Below are positions 7,743-17,666 of a stretch of DNA of 64,000 bases, piece by piece. How positions within the stretch are numbered: the first letter of the stretch is position 1; each line of letters begins with the position of its first letter. The position numbers and the translations under genes were made by a program. Where the stretch lies: the NCBI GenBank assembly GCA_026394605.1, contig JAPKXY010000040.1, positions 1 through 64,000 of the forward strand, given 5' to 3'. The stretch comes from Methanoregula sp. Lineage in GTDB: Archaea > Halobacteriota > Methanomicrobia > Methanomicrobiales > Methanospirillaceae. The notes below the pieces were generated by a model, which saw only the letters and a program-made list of their open reading frames with translations, did not search any database and was not told where the DNA came from.

Positions 7743-9626
7743 TCAATACGGTATGCACATGCCCCAGATGCATACACCCCATACCTCCACGCACTGGTGC
7801 CCGCAGGCACCGCAGTTGACCTTATCGAACCAGATATCCACACAACCTATGCCATTACAGAATGTCCCCTCCGAACAGCCGGTCACGCACTGGCCGTTTT
7901 CGCAGATCTCGTTCTCAAAGCAGGTTCTGTCACAGGCACCGCAGTGCCGGGGATCCGTTGCAAGGTTCCTGCAGGAGCGGTCACACTGCGTCTGCCCCTG
8001 CGGGCAGGTGGAGACGCACTGGCCGTTGACGCAGATCGTGTTATAATTGCAGGGGGTATAACACGAACCGCAGAACGAGTTGTCATTATGGAGGTTGCGG
8101 CAGTCATGGTTCCCCATGCAGTCCTCGTATCCTGCCGGGCAGGTCGAGGTGCACTGGCCGTTTATGCACATCTGCCCGTCCCCGCAGGCATTCCCGCATG
8201 CCCCGCAGTTCTGCCGGTCACCGGTAGTATACTCGCATACCCCGCCACAGGTGGCATATCCGTACAGACAGCCCACGCAGTCACCAGATTCGCACATCTG
8301 CCCTTGCGGGCACTGGTTTTGGCAGGCACCGCAGTTTGCCTCATCACCATCCATGACATTCGTCACGCTCCCGGAGCAGATGACAAGGCAGTGCCCGTCA
8401 ACACAGGCGAGCCCGTTCTGGCAGGCATTCCCGCAGGTGCCGCAGTTGGCCGGGTCTGTATCTGGATTCACGCACTGCCCGTTGCACATCCTGTCTTTGT
8501 CAGTACCATGGCACACGCAGTACCCGTTACTGCAGATTGCATTAGCCGGGCAGGTGATCCCGCAGCCGCCACAGTTCAGCGTGTCATTTTCGGTCCGGAT
8601 ACACTGCCCGTTACAGAACGAGTCATCCCTGCTGCATGTGCACTGGTGGAGGTATTCTTCGCAGACCATGTATGGCCGGCAGGTATTGCCACAGGAACCA
8701 CAGTTCGTGGTTGTCCAGTCCGGCATACACATCCCTTCACAGACGATGAACGTGGGTGGGCACTGGTTCGGATTGGTCGGACCACCAACCACCTGAACGC
8801 AGGTGCTGTTCCTGCAGGCCTGGTCGATCCGGCAGTGCCTGCCGCACTGCCCGCAGTTGGCCCAGCTCGATGTCATATCGGCACAGATGCCATTGCAGCA
8901 TGACTGGTTGAGCTGGCATTGGAAGTTGCATGCACCGCAGTGGTTCCAGTTGTGGTCCATGTCGACACAGTTGCTTCCGCTGCAATAGGTGTAGTTCCCT
9001 GAGCAGCGAGGCTTGCATATTCCATTATTGCACCAATTATCTTCAGGGCATTGAATGCCGCAACCGCCGCAGTTGGAGTCCATTTCGTTGTAGTTCACAC
9101 AGTGCCCGTCGCAGCACATCCCGTACGGGCAGACGGTGCCGCACTGCCCGCAGTTGCTTTTGTCAGTCTTCGTGTTGACGCAGGACCCCCCGCACTGAAT
9201 ATTGGGGAAGACACAGAAAATCCGGCTGGTCTCAAAGGCGATGCTGGTGAGTGCCGGCATGACGGTGGGCCGGAGGGTGACGGAAAACGGTTGTGTCGTG
9301 ACAACATGCACGCCCTCCGGGGGTTGCTGGGGCGGGGCAGGGGGAGATGTCGTTTGGGTTGTCTGCGGTGCAAGCGTCGTTACCGGGAGTACCGCCACAA
9401 CCGGGGTCGTCGAAACATTCACCGGCGCTTTTGTCGCCACCTGCAGGGGGGCAAATCCGAGGAAAAACCCGTACCCCGCCACGGAATCACCATCAGTTGT
9501 CTGGCTGCCGCCCCCACCTGCCAGGCAGGGCGGAACGAGAAGAGCGCAGACCAGCAGGGCAGCTGCGATACCCTGGACAAGAGCAGGCTGAAAAGAAGCC
9601 TGGTGTCCGGTCGAGAACCTGTTCAT
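7743..9626 (-). CDS. Secreted cysteine-repeat protein B
   Basis: 627 residues, paralogous to protein A at 5320-7314. The first 37 residues are nearly the same (MNRFSTGHQA..QPALV..IA.ALLV.ALLV.PCLAGGGGSQTT), followed by a Thr/Pro/Val linker and then about ten cysteine units with the NCG.CG..C..G..C..G.C pattern. Both proteins end in the related motif W-GVCIWGxCxPY. The repeats have diverged far more than the signal peptide and flanking DNA, which suggests diversifying selection or repeat turnover in the exposed part. Likely secreted to the cell surface; ligand unknown. Confidence 0.85.
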   Translation of the reverse strand: MNRFSTGHQASFQPALVQGIAAALLVCALLVPPCLAGGGGSQTTDGDSVAGYGFFLGFAPLQVATKAPVNVSTTPVVAVLPVTTLAPQTTQTTSPPAPPQQPPEGVHVVTTQPFSVTLRPTVMPALTSIAFETSRIFCVFPNIQCGGSCVNTKTDKSNCGQCGTVCPYGMCCDGHCVNYNEMDSNCGGCGIQCPEDNWCNNGICKPRCSGNYTYCSGSNCVDMDHNWNHCGACNFQCQLNQSCCNGICADMTSSWANCGQCGRHCRIDQACRNSTCVQVVGGPTNPNQCPPTFIVCEGMCMPDWTTTNCGSCGNTCRPYMVCEEYLHQCTCSRDDSFCNGQCIRTENDTLNCGGCGITCPANAICSNGYCVCHGTDKDRMCNGQCVNPDTDPANCGTCGNACQNGLACVDGHCLVICSGSVTNVMDGDEANCGACQNQCPQGQMCESGDCVGCLYGYATCGGVCEYTTGDRQNCGACGNACGDGQMCINGQCTSTCPAGYEDCMGNHDCRNLHNDNSFCGSCYTPCNYNTICVNGQCVSTCPQGQTQCDRSCRNLATDPRHCGACDRTCFENEICENGQCVTGCSEGTFCNGIGCVDIWFDKVNCGACGHQCVEVWGVCIWGMCIPY

Positions 9627-11823: not shown

Positions 11824-13848
11824 TTACGGGTACTGGCTGAAGACATCGTTCACCCTCCGTTCACATGCCTCCTCAAACTGGCACATCGGGTCCCCGGGGC
11901 CACAGCTCGCCAGTATCGCCCGGTCGCAGGACTGCGAGCATGCCATGATGCAGTGGGGGGGATCGATGTCCCAGAAACCCGTCCCGCAGTTCCCGCTCCC
12001 TGCCGGGCAGAAATTATCACAGTCGTCCGGGTCCCAGCCCATGGCGTTTGCATCATTCCGGCAGTTGTTCCTGCTGGACCAGATGTTGGGATTGGGATCA
12101 TTCTGTCTGTAGCCGCTGTCACAGCAGTATTCATCCTTGACCCCAAACAGGGAATGCCCGCTCTCATGGACAAACGTGCGGTAGCTCGTGGGCTCCGAGG
12201 TGAAGACCCGTCTCCCGCACCTCTGGCCTGCCCAGTCGCGGAAGCCGGTCACGTGCACAACCGCGATTGAATCCGCAAAGGTCGTCGCGTCCTGGAACGA
12301 CTCGCAGGAGTCCAGCGGGGGCGTAAATAGGGCACCATCATCAAAGCCCGTGACATCCGCCTCGTCATTCAGGTAATAGAAGTTGAACTTGGTGCGGTTC
12401 TGCTCAACCGCCGTGTTCCGTAAATACCCGTTGATGATCGTGTCCTGCACATCCCGGCTGAGCCGGGCCATGTCCCCGCCATAGTCAATGTCGGGAATGA
12501 ACACGACATCGATCTTGTCGTCGGGTCTGCCGGCGATGCGCAGGGGGATCACGTGCTCCCCGCACCAGGTGCACGGGGTGCAGGCCGGGCAGTACGCACC
12601 CCCACAGTCGATCTGCTGCTCGTCGCGGTTCATGAGGTTGTCATCACAGGAGCCGAACCACACGGTGGCAGATCCCCACCGCTCGTTGCCCCCCGGGTCA
12701 CAGACGCGTGCCCTGATATCGATCCGTGCGAGGCCGTTCATGGAAACCGAAACAGAATCCGACCATGATGACGGCACATCCCCGGCCTTACGCACCGGCT
12801 TAGGTTCGGGCGTCAGCGCCGGTGAAGAGGACGGAGGCCGGGTGCCGTCGGTTTTGAAAAACTCGAGCGTTGCGGTCATGCTGGCAATGGAGACGTCATC
12901 CTGCCCCCGGATCGTCACCCGGATATCCTCGTCGATCCGCGGCAGGGGCGGCGTTGACAAAATTTCCACTTCCGGGACATGAGAGTCCTGGGGGACATAG
13001 GTGAAATCCCAGCCGGTCTGGTCCACGTCGTCCATGCTGACCTCGGTCCCCCGTAACGGGGTAAATGTGCCGGTCCACGGGCAGACACCGGCAACGGGCT
13101 GGTAGACCGGGACGACCTCGACTACCCCGTTACAGGATGCGATGCCCGTGTAGGTGTAATGGGAGACAAGGTCGCCGGCCATGACCGGCGATACGCTCAC
13201 GTAAGCCGGTGGAACGCCGGCAGGGGTGAACCTCACCTTCAGGCTGCTGGTATTTTTGTAAAACCCAAAGATGTCGCCGGAGATCATGCAGCGACGGCTT
13301 GCCGTCACGGCGATTCCCGGCGCGGTCATAGCCAGGGTGATCACTGGCGCGGTGACTCCCGGCGCGGTGACAGCCAGGGTCACCGGCAGCATGACCGGGG
13401 TCGGCAGGGCCGGGGTTGTTACGGTTTTTTCATAGCAGTACTTCTCGTTTTTCATCGTATCGTACGCGCAGAGGGTCTGCTTACCGGCACAGAGGGCATA
13501 CCCCTGCTGCTTTCCCTCTTCCGGGGTGTAGCAGCTGCACCCGGACGGGCAGGTCACCGGTACCGGTGCCGTGGGAACCATGGGCGTGACGAACGGCTTT
13601 GTCGTGGTCAGGAAAGGGACGGTCGTTACGGTTTTTTCATAGCAGTACTTCTCGTTTTTCATCGCATCGTACCCGCAGATTGCCTGCTTCCCGTTACAGT
13701 AGCCGGTATAGCCGAGCTTCTTGGCCTCGGCAGGGAGCAGGCAGGAGCAGTCTGAGGGACAGGTAACCGTTGCGGCAAGAACGGACGGTACAAGGAACGA
13801 TACAAGGAGAACACAGTAGATACAGGTCAGGATCAGGTGTTTTTTCAC
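11824..13848 (-). CDS. Secreted M64-like zinc metallopeptidase
   Basis: About 674 residues from GTG 13848 (preceded by GGTGGT; an earlier GTG at 13866 would spoil the signal peptide). The signal is VKKHLILTCIYCVLLVSFLV. Two copies of a small cysteine domain follow (CPSDCSCLLPAEAKKLGYTG and CPSGCSCYTPEEGKQQGYAL, each closing with KNEKYCYEKTVTT), then Thr/Pro/Val linkers and an Ig-like region. The catalytic part holds FVHESGHSLFGVKDEY near residue 559-574: HExxH with a following DEY, as in IgA-peptidase M64 enzymes. The C-terminus is cysteine-rich. Likely an extracellular protease or adhesin-processing enzyme; substrate unknown. Confidence 0.8.
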   Translation of the reverse strand: MKKHLILTCIYCVLLVSFLVPSVLAATVTCPSDCSCLLPAEAKKLGYTGYCNGKQAICGYDAMKNEKYCYEKTVTTVPFLTTTKPFVTPMVPTAPVPVTCPSGCSCYTPEEGKQQGYALCAGKQTLCAYDTMKNEKYCYEKTVTTPALPTPVMLPVTLAVTAPGVTAPVITLAMTAPGIAVTASRRCMISGDIFGFYKNTSSLKVRFTPAGVPPAYVSVSPVMAGDLVSHYTYTGIASCNGVVEVVPVYQPVAGVCPWTGTFTPLRGTEVSMDDVDQTGWDFTYVPQDSHVPEVEILSTPPLPRIDEDIRVTIRGQDDVSIASMTATLEFFKTDGTRPPSSSPALTPEPKPVRKAGDVPSSWSDSVSVSMNGLARIDIRARVCDPGGNERWGSATVWFGSCDDNLMNRDEQQIDCGGAYCPACTPCTWCGEHVIPLRIAGRPDDKIDVVFIPDIDYGGDMARLSRDVQDTIINGYLRNTAVEQNRTKFNFYYLNDEADVTGFDDGALFTPPLDSCESFQDATTFADSIAVVHVTGFRDWAGQRCGRRVFTSEPTSYRTFVHESGHSLFGVKDEYCCDSGYRQNDPNPNIWSSRNNCRNDANAMGWDPDDCDNFCPAGSGNCGTGFWDIDPPHCIMACSQSCDRAILASCGPGDPMCQFEEACERRVNDVFSQYP

Positions 13849-14014
13849 ACGGCATACCACCAGCACTGGGGATAACAGGAATGAATAAGACGGGTTATAT
13901 GTATGTTTCTATTTCTGGTTCCGGGGAGGGGTGAAAAGGGAAAAATGAAGGTGGACCTGTTCTTCTGCAGGCAACGGTGGCGTTGCATTCTGGTGTTTTT
14001 GATAAAAAATCCAG

Positions 14015-14060: not shown

Positions 14061-15482
14061 ATGAAGAACGATTCCATCGTATTTCACGGTAACCTCCAAC
14101 AGTTACTGGCGAACGTGGAGACGGGCGAGATGATCCCCAAACTTCAGGCCTCGCACGCTCCCATGTGCAAATTTTTCACTGCATACTACGTCATCAGCGG
14201 CATCCGCCATGTTGTCCCCCTGGTGCACGGCCCGACCGGGTGCCCGTTATATATGTCTGACTTTGTCAGGACACGGGAGTGCTGCGAGATACGCGGTGTC
14301 CCACTCGAACCTACTGCCTGCACCGCCCTTGATGAAAGTCACGTCATCTACGGCGGTGAGGGAAAACTTTTGGAAGCAGTTAAGGAAGCATACGCAAAGT
14401 ATCACCCCGACCTCATCGTCATCCTCTCCTGCTGCTGTTCCGGGATCATCGGCGATGATGTCGAAAGCATTGCCCGCGAGGCAGAGAAGCTGGTTGGCTG
14501 CCGGGTGCTGGCGCTCAGGAGCGAGGGCTTTGGCGGCGACTTCCGGAGCGGCTATGAGGATGCGTTCCGGCTCATCCTGGACCTGATGGAGCCCCCAAAA
14601 AAGACAATGAAAGGGACGATCAACATCCTCGGGGCCCGCTGGGGCCCTACCCCCACGGAGTTCAACTGGGACATGGACGAGATCGAACGGCTCCTTGGAA
14701 ACGTCGGCATTAAGATCAACGCCATAATCGCAGGAGGATGCACCGTCGAGCAGATTACCCGTGCACGGGAGGTCGAACTGAATGCCTCGTGGTGCTATGA
14801 CTGGGGGCAGAAGCTGGGCGACCTGATGCAGGAACGGTACGGCATCCCCTACAGCAGGACCGGGCAGCCCTACGGGCCTGAGGCCACAAAGGAATGGATC
14901 CTTGGGGTAGCCACGCCTCTTGGCATGGAGAAAAAAGCGCTCGCGGTGATCGGGCGGGAGATGCGGGATGTGGAGCCGGACCTTGCCTACTTAAAAAAGG
15001 CCCTTTCAGGGAAGACGGCAATCATTGAAATATCAGAATTTCCCGGACCGATCCGGGCCCTCTCGCTGGCCCGGATGGCGGAGGAGTTTGGTGCCCACCC
15101 GGTCGTCATCAACGTCCATCCCTACACGATCAAGGAAAGGATGCCCAGCATCAAATTCCTGGTAGAGACCGGTGTCAACCCGGAGATCATCTTGACAAAA
15201 GGACTCTTCAAGCTGGGGAGCTTCCGCTCGTCAAAAGAGACCGAGGATGAGCTGGAGGAAATTGTCCGGACGTATGATGACGCCATCTTCTTTGGAAACG
15301 CCGGACGGTTCCCTCCCTGCCCGGTGGTGAACTTAACACTCATGAACCCGGTGTTCCAGCCCCAGTACGGCTTCCGGGGAATTACAAACATCGCTGCCCT
15401 GGTCAGGCAGGCACTGGAGAACAAAGACCTCCCGCGCTCGCGGTTGTTTAAGGGGATGCTCTATGGGACAAGGACGAAGTAA
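14061..15482 (+). CDS. NifD-like subunit of an uncharacterised nitrogenase-like reductase
   Basis: 473 residues of the oxidoreductase/nitrogenase component 1 family. P-cluster-type cysteines are visible as HAPMC (Cys36), GPTGC (Cys61) and the CCCSGIIGDD motif (Cys124-126), matching NifD Cys62, Cys88 and Cys154. LNASWCYDWGQ puts Cys245 where NifD has the FeMo-cofactor ligand Cys275. At the expected position of the second ligand (NifD His442) the sequence reads LMNPVFQPQYGFRG with no histidine. The product should be a catalytic subunit that binds an [8Fe] or simpler cluster and an unknown substrate or cofactor. It overlaps the NifK-like gene by 20 bases. It is unlikely to be CfbD, because that enzyme has no NifK partner. 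Confidence 0.85.
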   Translation: MKNDSIVFHGNLQQLLANVETGEMIPKLQASHAPMCKFFTAYYVISGIRHVVPLVHGPTGCPLYMSDFVRTRECCEIRGVPLEPTACTALDESHVIYGGEGKLLEAVKEAYAKYHPDLIVILSCCCSGIIGDDVESIAREAEKLVGCRVLALRSEGFGGDFRSGYEDAFRLILDLMEPPKKTMKGTINILGARWGPTPTEFNWDMDEIERLLGNVGIKINAIIAGGCTVEQITRAREVELNASWCYDWGQKLGDLMQERYGIPYSRTGQPYGPEATKEWILGVATPLGMEKKALAVIGREMRDVEPDLAYLKKALSGKTAIIEISEFPGPIRALSLARMAEEFGAHPVVINVHPYTIKERMPSIKFLVETGVNPEIILTKGLFKLGSFRSSKETEDELEEIVRTYDDAIFFGNAGRFPPCPVVNLTLMNPVFQPQYGFRGITNIAALVRQALENKDLPRSRLFKGMLYGTRTK

Positions 15483-16821
15483 ACGGGCAGCCGGAGCGGA
15501 GACGCCGGTGCCTGATACATGCACAGACCCGTACCTCCGGTGTGCATTCAACGGCGCTGCCCAGACGGCACTGGGGGTTGCCGGTTCCGCCCTGCTCGCC
15601 CATTCACCGCAGGGATGCGAGTACCTTGTCAACAACGCATTTGCCTCTCAGGAGTGCGATTACATGGAGACAATGACACTCTGCACCAAATTATGCGTGG
15701 ATGAGATCGTGCACGGCGGCGAGGACCTCCTTGCCCGTACGATCCGTGAAGCAAAGGATCTCCCCATCTCCGCCCTGTTCGTGATCAGCGCATGCGGGCC
15801 CGAGATTGTCGGTGACGACATCGTGGGGGTATGTGAGGATATGCAGCCGGAGGTGAAGTTCAGGCTCGTTCCTGTCCCGTGCGCCGGGTTCAGGGGGTCG
15901 CAGTACGACGGCATCGACATCGCACTGGATGAAATAGTAAAGAGATGTACAAAAAACACCAAAGAGAAGATACCGGATTCCGTGTGCCTTATTGCCCCCC
16001 ACGCAAATGCCAACCCGACATGGATTGCAGACCTGGATTGGGTACAACGGATCCTTTCGCAGATGGGCGTCCGGGTTGTTGCCACGCTCACGCACAGGAC
16101 GCCCCTTGCTGAGATTGAGAACGCGGCATCTGCCGAGACATCCCTTGTGGTAAGCCACGACGCCGGACAGAAAGCAGCGGATTATCTTTCTGCGACCTGG
16201 GGCACCGAACAGGTCTGCACGGGGATACCATTGCCGATCGGCATGACCAATACCCAGCGCTGGCTGACCACCTTGGGGGAGCGGTTTGATGCGCAGAAAG
16301 CAGCGGAGAGCATGGTTGCGGAAGGCGAGAGGATGGTGATGGCGACGTGCCGGCGCAAGTGGCCGATGGCACGGTTCTTGTACCGGACACCTGCTGCGAT
16401 TGTCGCCGATGCGACGGTCGGGATCCCGCTCGTCCGGTTTGTCTGCGAGGATATGGAGATGACACCGGAACTCGTTGCCCTGTACACCTCCCAGCGTACG
16501 GTCCGCACACTGCTGGAACGGGAACTAAAAGAACTCGGGCTTACCCCAAAAGTCGTGTACGGCACTGACGTGTACACGACGAGGAAAAGTCTGGCCGAGG
16601 TACGGCCGCGGGTCGTGTTCGGGAGCACGATCGAACGGCACGCCAGTGAGGGGCTGGGGGTGTCGTATATTGTTGAGGTGGTAAAGATGATGCGCCAGTT
16701 CAGGATGATTAACAGGGAATACTTCGGGTATACCGGCATTCTGAACCTTTTTGAGTGTGTCCAGAACGAGTGGACGATGGGATGGCGCTCAAAGGAGAGA
16801 AGCTACAAGGCGAAGTGGTGA
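15463..16821 (+). CDS. NifK-like subunit of the nitrogenase-like reductase
   Basis: 452 residues. The three P-cluster cysteine positions of NifK are present: RCAFNGA (Cys27), SPQGCEY (Cys52) and SACGPEIVGDD (Cys111), corresponding to NifK Cys70, Cys95 and Cys153. The rest follows the component-1 fold, with ISQ-like strands such as TSLVVSHDAGQKAADYLSA. The start overlaps the NifD-like gene by 20 bases and the TGA is eight bases before the NifH-like ATG, so stoichiometric coupled expression is expected. With the NifD-like chain it should form an alpha2-beta2 heterotetramer. No NifE/NifN/NifB gene lies nearby. Confidence 0.85.
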   Translation: MGQGRSKRAAGAETPVPDTCTDPYLRCAFNGAAQTALGVAGSALLAHSPQGCEYLVNNAFASQECDYMETMTLCTKLCVDEIVHGGEDLLARTIREAKDLPISALFVISACGPEIVGDDIVGVCEDMQPEVKFRLVPVPCAGFRGSQYDGIDIALDEIVKRCTKNTKEKIPDSVCLIAPHANANPTWIADLDWVQRILSQMGVRVVATLTHRTPLAEIENAASAETSLVVSHDAGQKAADYLSATWGTEQVCTGIPLPIGMTNTQRWLTTLGERFDAQKAAESMVAEGERMVMATCRRKWPMARFLYRTPAAIVADATVGIPLVRFVCEDMEMTPELVALYTSQRTVRTLLERELKELGLTPKVVYGTDVYTTRKSLAEVRPRVVFGSTIERHASEGLGVSYIVEVVKMMRQFRMINREYFGYTGILNLFECVQNEWTMGWRSKERSYKAKW

Positions 16822-16829
16822 AGGAACAT

Positions 16830-17666
16830 ATGAGACAGATCGCGATATACGGCAAAGGGGGGATTGGGAAAAGCACGATCGCCTCAAACCTGTCTGCGGC
16901 GTTAAGCGGGATGGGCTTAACAGTCATGCAGGTCGGCTGTGATCCCAAGAGGGACTCGACGAGGATCCTTGCCGGGGGGCGGTTTATCCCCGCAGTCCTG
17001 GAAGAGCACCGGGAACAGCTGAGGGTCGGCAAAGACGAATATGCAATTAACCTTAACAATATCGTCTTCAAATCGCCTTCCGGGATTTATCTTGTTGAGG
17101 CAGGAGGGCCGGAGCCGGGGGTCGGTTGTGCCGGGCGGGGCGTGCTGACAGCGCTGCAGATATTAAAAGATCTCAAAGCGTTTGAGACCTATAGGATCGA
17201 TGTGGCGATCTATGATGTGCTCGGCGACGTCGTATGCGGGGGGTTTTCGATGCCCATCCGCGAAGGGTTCGCAAAAGAGATCTACCTCATCTGTTCCGGC
17301 GGTTTCATGAGCATATACGCGGCAAACAACATCGCCCGGGCAGTGCAGCGCCTGGCAAAGCGGGGCGATACCGGGCTTGCCGGGATTATCTGCAACAGCA
17401 ACGGAAACGAAGCGTTTGAGCACGCAGTTATTCCTGAGTTTGCAAAAAAACTGGGAACTGCGTTTGTACAGTTTGTCCCCAGGAGTCCCGTAATCCAGGC
17501 CTGTGAACTGGAAGGAAAGGCGGTTGTGGAGCATTCTCCGGGCTCAAAGGAAGCGGAGGTCTTTAAAAATCTTGCACGAGCGGTGATGGAGAATACGTCG
17601 CGGGTGATCCCGACTCCCGTACGCGAACTCGCCGAGCTTGAGAAGATGTACCGGCAGTATCTTTAA
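16830..17666 (+). CDS. NifH-like Fe protein (ATP-dependent reductase)
   Basis: 278 residues from ATG 16830, placed after AAGGA and directly before the first beta strand (MRQIAIYGKGGIGKST). The P-loop GKGGIGKST is at residues 8-16. Both [4Fe-4S] ligand cysteines are present: GVGCAGRG (Cys100) and GDVVCGGFSMP (Cys136). The length is normal for NifH/BchL-type proteins. It should hydrolyse ATP while passing electrons to the NifDK-like partner encoded just upstream. Gene order D-K-H differs from the usual nifHDK. An earlier in-frame ATG at 16755 lies inside the upstream gene and is less likely. Confidence 0.9.
   Translation: MRQIAIYGKGGIGKSTIASNLSAALSGMGLTVMQVGCDPKRDSTRILAGGRFIPAVLEEHREQLRVGKDEYAINLNNIVFKSPSGIYLVEAGGPEPGVGCAGRGVLTALQILKDLKAFETYRIDVAIYDVLGDVVCGGFSMPIREGFAKEIYLICSGGFMSIYAANNIARAVQRLAKRGDTGLAGIICNSNGNEAFEHAVIPEFAKKLGTAFVQFVPRSPVIQACELEGKAVVEHSPGSKEAEVFKNLARAVMENTSRVIPTPVRELAELEKMYRQYL

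Follow-up and report, generated by a model that had tools for sequence, protein, structure and literature searches.

A three-gene nitrogenase-like operon of Methanoregula and its relatives: a probable stand-alone reductase beside the VnfEN lineage

The 64,000-nucleotide stretch analysed here (the window: positions 1 to 64,000 of contig JAPKXY010000040.1, Methanoregula sp., assembly GCA_026394605.1) carries, at positions 14061-17666, three open reading frames (ORFs) on the forward strand encoding D, K and H proteins of the nitrogenase superfamily (hereafter DKH; Table 1). Judged from sequence, D and K appear to form a new clade of their own, sister to VnfEN and made up of stand-alone nitrogenase-like reductases. 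With a probability of roughly two in three (about 0.68), the gene set encodes an ATP-driven reductase that would combine a P-cluster with a NifB-derived [8Fe-9S-C] cluster and would serve no nitrogenase.

The operon and its kinship with VnfE and VnfN

D and K matched PF00148 (6e-69 and 4e-78) and H matched PF00142 (1e-91), all above the curated cut-offs; together with three P-cluster cysteines in each of D and K and the Fe-protein cysteine pair in H, this establishes membership in the nitrogenase superfamily. K overlaps D by 20 nt. The listed H ORF reaches upstream to GTG 16755, but H most likely starts at ATG 16830, 8 nt after the K stop, because homologues begin at MRQIAIYGKGG and the GTG is a codon inside K. 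Between the window operon and copies in other methanogens, dN/dS ranged from 0.03 to 0.19, indicating strong purifying selection. D-K-H is a functional gene set and not a chance pattern, and the complete three-gene nitrogenase-like reductase described by the first-pass annotation was borne out by Pfam, motifs, orthologues and dN/dS.

Searched against plasmid records, D and K aligned best over their full length with two "nitrogenase component 1" genes (37% each) lying directly after vnfD-vnfK in Nostoc. These genes are VnfE and VnfN, the nearest kin, which were missing from the families first considered for this operon. Full alignments to them gave 39% identity for D and 38% for K, with the same length and the same adjacent E-N order, and reached into the C-terminal region, in which the alignment to NifE and NifD becomes poor. 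When the D+VnfE alignment was scanned against 84,980 species genomes, at least 80 loci were recovered, and the matches listed split cleanly into at least 43 D-type and at least 37 VnfE loci. Among these matches, K and H stood beside D in most D-type loci with enough contig (L118 being the exception) and VnfD or VnfK was never nearby, whereas VnfE was found beside VnfN, plus VnfD or VnfK wherever the contig reached.

A joint tree of 111 component-1 proteins placed D as sister to VnfE and K as sister to VnfN, in separate clades not nested inside either. In the D-side tree (bootstrap/Shimodaira-Hasegawa approximate likelihood-ratio test), D+VnfE, D and VnfE were each supported at 100/99, and D+VnfE fell outside the NifE/NifD/VnfD clade; Mar/group IV was the next clade out, with a weaker join (83/77). 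Approximately unbiased (AU) tests rejected the groupings D+Nif (p = 0.0018) and VnfE+Nif (p = 0.0023) and, less strongly, D+Mar (p = 0.031), with p-values that are somewhat optimistic as the groups were named after a quick tree had been seen. H formed its own Fe-protein clade, apart from VnfH, NifH and CfbC. The VnfE and VnfN proteins compared came from cyanobacterial, clostridial and archaeal vnf clusters, and the trees were built without Isr, group VI, NifH subclusters IV-B/C/E and Azotobacter VnfEN. No description of the DKH clade was found in the open-access library searched; with group IV sparsely sampled, it may coincide with a named, uncharacterised NifH subcluster.

Conserved residues and comparison with characterised systems

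The P-cluster cysteines (D C36, C61, C125; K C27, C52, C111) and D C245, the counterpart of the cofactor ligand NifD Cys275, were conserved in all or nearly all of the 20 D and 16 K orthologues compared (C36 in 19 of 20). H has the P-loop GKGGIGKS and both cluster cysteines (GVGCAGRG, DVVCGGF). The nine cysteines first reported (six for the P-cluster, two of the Fe protein and Cys245) are thus present and conserved across orthologues. The reported loss of NifD His442 also stood, as the corresponding segment of D reads LMNPVFQPQYGFRG. Taken alone, this loss does not point to novelty, since MarD and NifE lack the histidine too: the MarD ligand His429 comes from another loop (PMC12552129) and the NifE ligand is Gln419 (PMC13031127). 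By alignment, D lacks the MarD pair Arg428-His429 as well (residues per PMC12552129), and in the window protein NifD Gln191, His195 and Val70 are replaced by Phe, Tyr and Tyr, respectively.

Cys227, His353, Asp247 and Arg162 were invariant in both D and VnfE, and the two also share His32. His353 adjoins the alignment position of MarD His375, making it a candidate second cluster ligand. Cys420 of D (PPC motif) seemed possible as a ligand in methanogens and is not kept in bacterial members. Clade-specific cysteines were found in D (Cys75/87/124) and K (Cys20/78/140/175/252). The best Protein Data Bank (PDB) match of the AlphaFold model of D (predicted local distance difference test score, pLDDT, 78.9) was MarD (9fmg_A), and that of the K model (pLDDT 83.2) was AnfK (8oie_C). 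As MarD is an [Fe8S9C] enzyme, the predicted D fold is consistent with a carbide cluster.

Several characterised systems could be set aside. Nitrogenase proper (Nif/Vnf/Anf DK) does not fit, as TIGR01862 scored 149.1 bits against a cut-off of 486.05 and the equivalents of His442, Gln191 and His195 are missing. NifEN resembles DKH in that the top NCBIfam match of D was nifE (157 of 505 bits) and both lack His442, but D lies outside the NifE clade and its grouping with Nif was rejected. That DKH might be a cryptic nitrogenase fixing N2 on an L-cluster is extremely improbable: the cofactor cysteine is kept, and one report (PMC13245594) presents L-cluster-bound assembly platforms as N2-reducing, but the residues of NifD N2 chemistry are replaced, no PII or nifEN genes lie near, and no NrpR-type operator was found upstream of D in the loci read.

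CfbCD was likewise excluded, in line with the first-pass annotation. Its models scored below cut-off (TIGR03282, 43.9 of 268.4 bits; NF033200, 334.3 of 402 bits), DKH has a K subunit, and the true CfbD and CfbC sit elsewhere in the host genome, so D and K are not part of CfbCD: a CfbE-CfbD-CfbB cluster lies on contig C24 (CfbD, 493 bits) and CfbC on contig C16 (416.9 bits; cut-off 402). The Bch models (DPOR/COR) were also below cut-off. Methanogens do make unusual tetrapyrroles and the top NCBIfam match of K is BchB, yet a tetrapyrrole reductase like BchNB or Cfb is a very improbable reading, with all matches far under the Bch and Cfb cut-offs and with a kept Cys245 and, in bacterial relatives, a linked nifB-like gene that would be unexpected without an 8Fe cofactor.

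The methylthio-alkane reductase Mar (MarHDK(B)) shares with DKH the HDK set, the NifB-like partner (in bacterial DKH members), the P-cluster and cofactor cysteines and the best fold match of D. It differs by only ~20% identity in the structural alignment, by the Arg428-His429 loop that D lacks, and by its separate clade, for which the AU support is moderate (p = 0.03); D is not in the MarD clade. Isr (IsrBHDK) is another non-nitrogenase reductase with HDK and a radical SAM gene; IsrD, which is absent from the tree, keeps one P-cluster cysteine (PMC11423573), whereas D has three. Overall, by tree, cut-offs and residues, D and K stand outside Nif, Mar and CfbCD.

Carriers, host genome and neighbouring genes

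The host genome is a metagenome-assembled genome (MAG; completeness given as 91.67%). A profile search detected no NifD, VnfD or AnfD in its assembled part, which holds no separate nif cluster. In the window, no nifE, nifN, nifB, nifV or PII gene adjoins D-K-H, as first noted; this absence is misleading, because one nifB copy is present on host contig C21 and bacterial operons carry a nifB-like gene, so that D-K has a NifB or NifB-like partner available in either setting. A riboswitch search of the window and three related loci returned tRNAs only.

D was found in 15 of 199 genomes of the order, patchily across three families, and K in 20 of 232 genomes of the class. The operon also occurs in Methanosarcina, Methanothrix, Bathyarchaeota and Chloroflexi (Dehalococcoidia, Anaerolineae). 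Among the matches listed, D-type loci of Methanoregula, Methanolinea, Methanosarcina and Methanothrix were 76-92% identical, and those of Chloroflexi/Dehalococcoidia/Anaerolineae and one Bathyarchaeote had 61-70% identity. In the phylum of the genome carrying L123, the operon is rare, the query's own genome being the only positive among 400. The occurrence in Chloroflexi/Dehalococcoidia and Bathyarchaeota means that the "different methanogen substrate" of the first-pass annotation is not indicated.

None of the 15 DKH genomes of the order, 10 of which are at least 90% complete, had a nitrogenase alpha subunit over cut-off, and in nine Chloroflexota genomes D and K were the only PF00148 matches at E ≤ 1e-15. 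Other nif/vnf-type genes are present in two Methanosarcina carriers (G199, G201), where they lie away from DKH. These carriers without nitrogenase make a scaffold role for a nitrogenase very unlikely.

The patchy distribution, the 92% identity of D between genomes G165 and G142 (against 63% for a NifD-like gene widespread in the order, of the type on host contig C32), and the nesting of Methanosarcina and Methanothrix copies among those of Methanomicrobiales in the D-side tree suggest horizontal transfer of DKH. D also evolves slowly, and thus identity alone is no proof of recent transfer; comparison of the window with the Methanosarcina copy in L094 shows saturation at synonymous sites.

A nifB-like gene was found downstream in nine loci, eight from Chloroflexota and one from Bathyarchaeota; in most of them it follows H immediately, and in L127 it is ~1.1 kb further along. 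Both the HPC motif and CxxxCxxC are retained in the encoded proteins. A TPMT/TehB-type methyltransferase gene comes straight after H in Methanosarcina and Methanoregulaceae loci; the host genome of the window has it on a separate contig. This gene was present in 10 of 15 DKH genomes and in 16 of the 184 without DKH (Fisher p = 5e-7, with no correction for relatedness). As it is often found near efflux genes where DKH is absent, it is taken as a lead only and does not identify the substrate. Elsewhere it also accompanies genes for MFS and ABC-2 exporters, in the manner of a small mobile module. Besides the nifB-like gene (bacteria, Bathyarchaeota) and the methyltransferase (methanogens), no consistently linked gene was found in the loci compared; ABC-2 exporter, MFS, FMN reductase and DUF169 genes recur near DKH in a few.

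Table 1. Positions of the DKH genes in the window and of NifB-like and methyltransferase genes in other loci.
Feature	Sequence	Position	Strand	Length and basis
D subunit, VnfE-sister component-1 alpha protein	window	14061-15482	+	473 aa; Pfam, alignment, tree, AlphaFold
K subunit, VnfN-sister component-1 beta protein	window	15463-16821	+	452 aa; Pfam, alignment, tree, AlphaFold
H subunit, dedicated Fe protein	window	16830-17666	+	278 aa from ATG 16830; profile matches, alignment
NifB-like radical SAM protein with xxHPGW	L120	12603-13424		
NifB-like radical SAM protein with xxHPGW	L121	12547-13425		
NifB-like radical SAM protein with xxHPGW	L122	10103-10927		
NifB-like radical SAM protein with xxHPGW	L124, L127, L128			
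Methyltransferase (TPMT/TehB type)	L092	12685-13341		
Methyltransferase (TPMT/TehB type)	L094	12556-13269		
Methyltransferase (TPMT/TehB type)	L095	12609-13268		
Methyltransferase (TPMT/TehB type)	L106	5707-6375		
Methyltransferase (TPMT/TehB type)	L244, L238			
Methyltransferase (TPMT/TehB type)	L008	1328-1996		

Further observations concerned gene architecture. In L118 (5392-9002), D is followed directly by neither K nor H and then by radical SAM domain, HEAT-repeat and methyltransferase frames; the locus could be rearranged or misassembled. Possible fusions were seen as a 730-aa frame in a methanogen-like MAG (L108, 2018-4207; K into H) and a 953-aa frame in a Dehalococcoidales genome (L126, G211:C1:812080-814677; D and K together). 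Single frames of 759-779 aa in Methanosarcina and Bathyarchaeota (L208, 2149-4485; L212, 3941-6262; L213, 3450-5726) combine a NifH-type match of ~270 aa with a match of 260-295 aa to the NifD type of host contig C16. They appear to be natural NifH-NifD fusions and are followed by a second component-1 gene.

On host contig C16 itself (L010, 3303-6259), CfbC is followed by two short NifD-like genes (frames of 360 and 374 aa), which gives the host another uncharacterised nitrogenase-like set. A stand-alone NifD-like protein of ~400 aa, apparently split by a contig break, is encoded on host contigs C32 (1-964) and C35 (1-371; L008, L009). It is present in many genomes of the order with no K or H seen adjoining (L031-L039, L042, L043, L214, L215), and in some relatives its gene adjoins ilvE or an SppA/ClpP-like gene. 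On the reverse strand of the window, positions 7743-9626 encode a 627-aa protein with a signal-like start and consisting nearly entirely of Cys-rich repeats, near which lies another large secreted-looking protein (11824-13866).

Proposed function and its implications

Family, cysteines, sisterhood to VnfE and VnfN, dedicated H, nitrogenase-free carriers, bacterial nifB-like link and purifying selection were read from the sequences, and we infer the cluster identity, the electron path and the role as reductase. H, a predicted [4Fe-4S] homodimer, would hydrolyse ATP and feed low-potential electrons to a D2K2 heterotetramer, where they would pass the P-cluster at the D-K interface to reach the catalytic centre, an [8Fe-9S-C] (L-type) cluster that NifB would supply and D Cys245 would ligate. 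The second ligand would be neither NifD His442 nor MarD His429, and might be His353. The D-K complex is a sister lineage of the VnfEN maturase and would have no nitrogenase to serve. Unlike VnfEN, DKH has its own, non-VnfH Fe protein and extra invariant cysteines. Having its own H and often a linked cluster-maker, with no known client in bacterial hosts, it is very unlikely to be a nitrogenase scaffold.

Several points weigh against the proposed reductase with its carbide cluster. In seven of eight aligned NifB-like proteins, xxHPGW replaces the canonical ESRPG, and of the three copies scored only that of L123 passed the NifB cut-off, two falling below; the DKH-linked proteins may therefore make a different cluster product. 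The extra clade-specific cysteines of D and K could bind other clusters, and the second cluster ligand is a candidate only. Group IV was represented by just five sequences in the D-side tree, and most genomes are MAGs, in which the absence of other genes is not absolute.

A cofactor scaffold of another kind would be a VnfEN-type maturase that works with H and delivers its L-cluster, which in methanogens might go to the MCR activation complex. D-K is indeed sister to VnfEN, no strong second ligand was recognised, as in NifE, and methanogens need L-type clusters for McrC/Mmp7 (PMC12176620). This role is nevertheless improbable, with 184 of 199 related methanogen genomes lacking DKH, with Dehalococcoidia/Anaerolineae carriers lacking any other PF00148 protein, and with an Fe protein distinct from VnfH and CfbC. 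MCR, moreover, is not expected in Dehalococcoidia or Anaerolineae.

As to the substrate of the putative reductase, the likeliest class, itself a tentative guess and on its own rather improbable, would be small organic molecules in which a C-S bond or one like it is cleaved reductively, as by Mar and Isr. A more specific version, compatible with the stand-alone reductase, is Mar- or Isr-like sulfur salvage, in which an enzyme orthologous to neither would free sulfur or methanethiol from organosulfur compounds. The position of Mar/group IV as the next clade out, the MarD fold match and the presence in 10 of 15 DKH genomes of the methyltransferase, whose PDB matches include thiol methyltransferase 1, are consistent with it. 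It remains rather unlikely, however: D lacks Arg428-His429, sulfur-uptake genes are not consistently near the loci (one NMT1-like binding-protein gene lies upstream of D in L118), and 16 genomes that lack DKH have the methyltransferase too.

The reaction is established for only a few nitrogenase-like reductases, and each of these revealed unforeseen chemistry (F430, methanethiol/ethylene, isethionate). DKH lends itself to direct tests of cluster content and substrate, because its operon is compact, brings its own Fe protein and often a nifB-like gene, and in some natural hosts is the sole component-1 system found. Its place beside VnfEN also bears on the origin of vanadium-nitrogenase maturation. 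A review-style study describes Azotobacter VnfEN as a NifEN duplication (PMC7216921), and the order in which VnfE/N branch is left unsettled by a recent paper (PMC12176620); the VnfEN type compared here does not fit a NifEN-duplication origin. At somewhat less than even odds, DKH would represent a new functional class in Chloroflexi, Bathyarchaeota and methanogens, with a NifB-type carbide cluster and an uncharted second ligand, and VnfEN would share with it a non-NifEN ancestor and have been recruited from an enzyme lineage.

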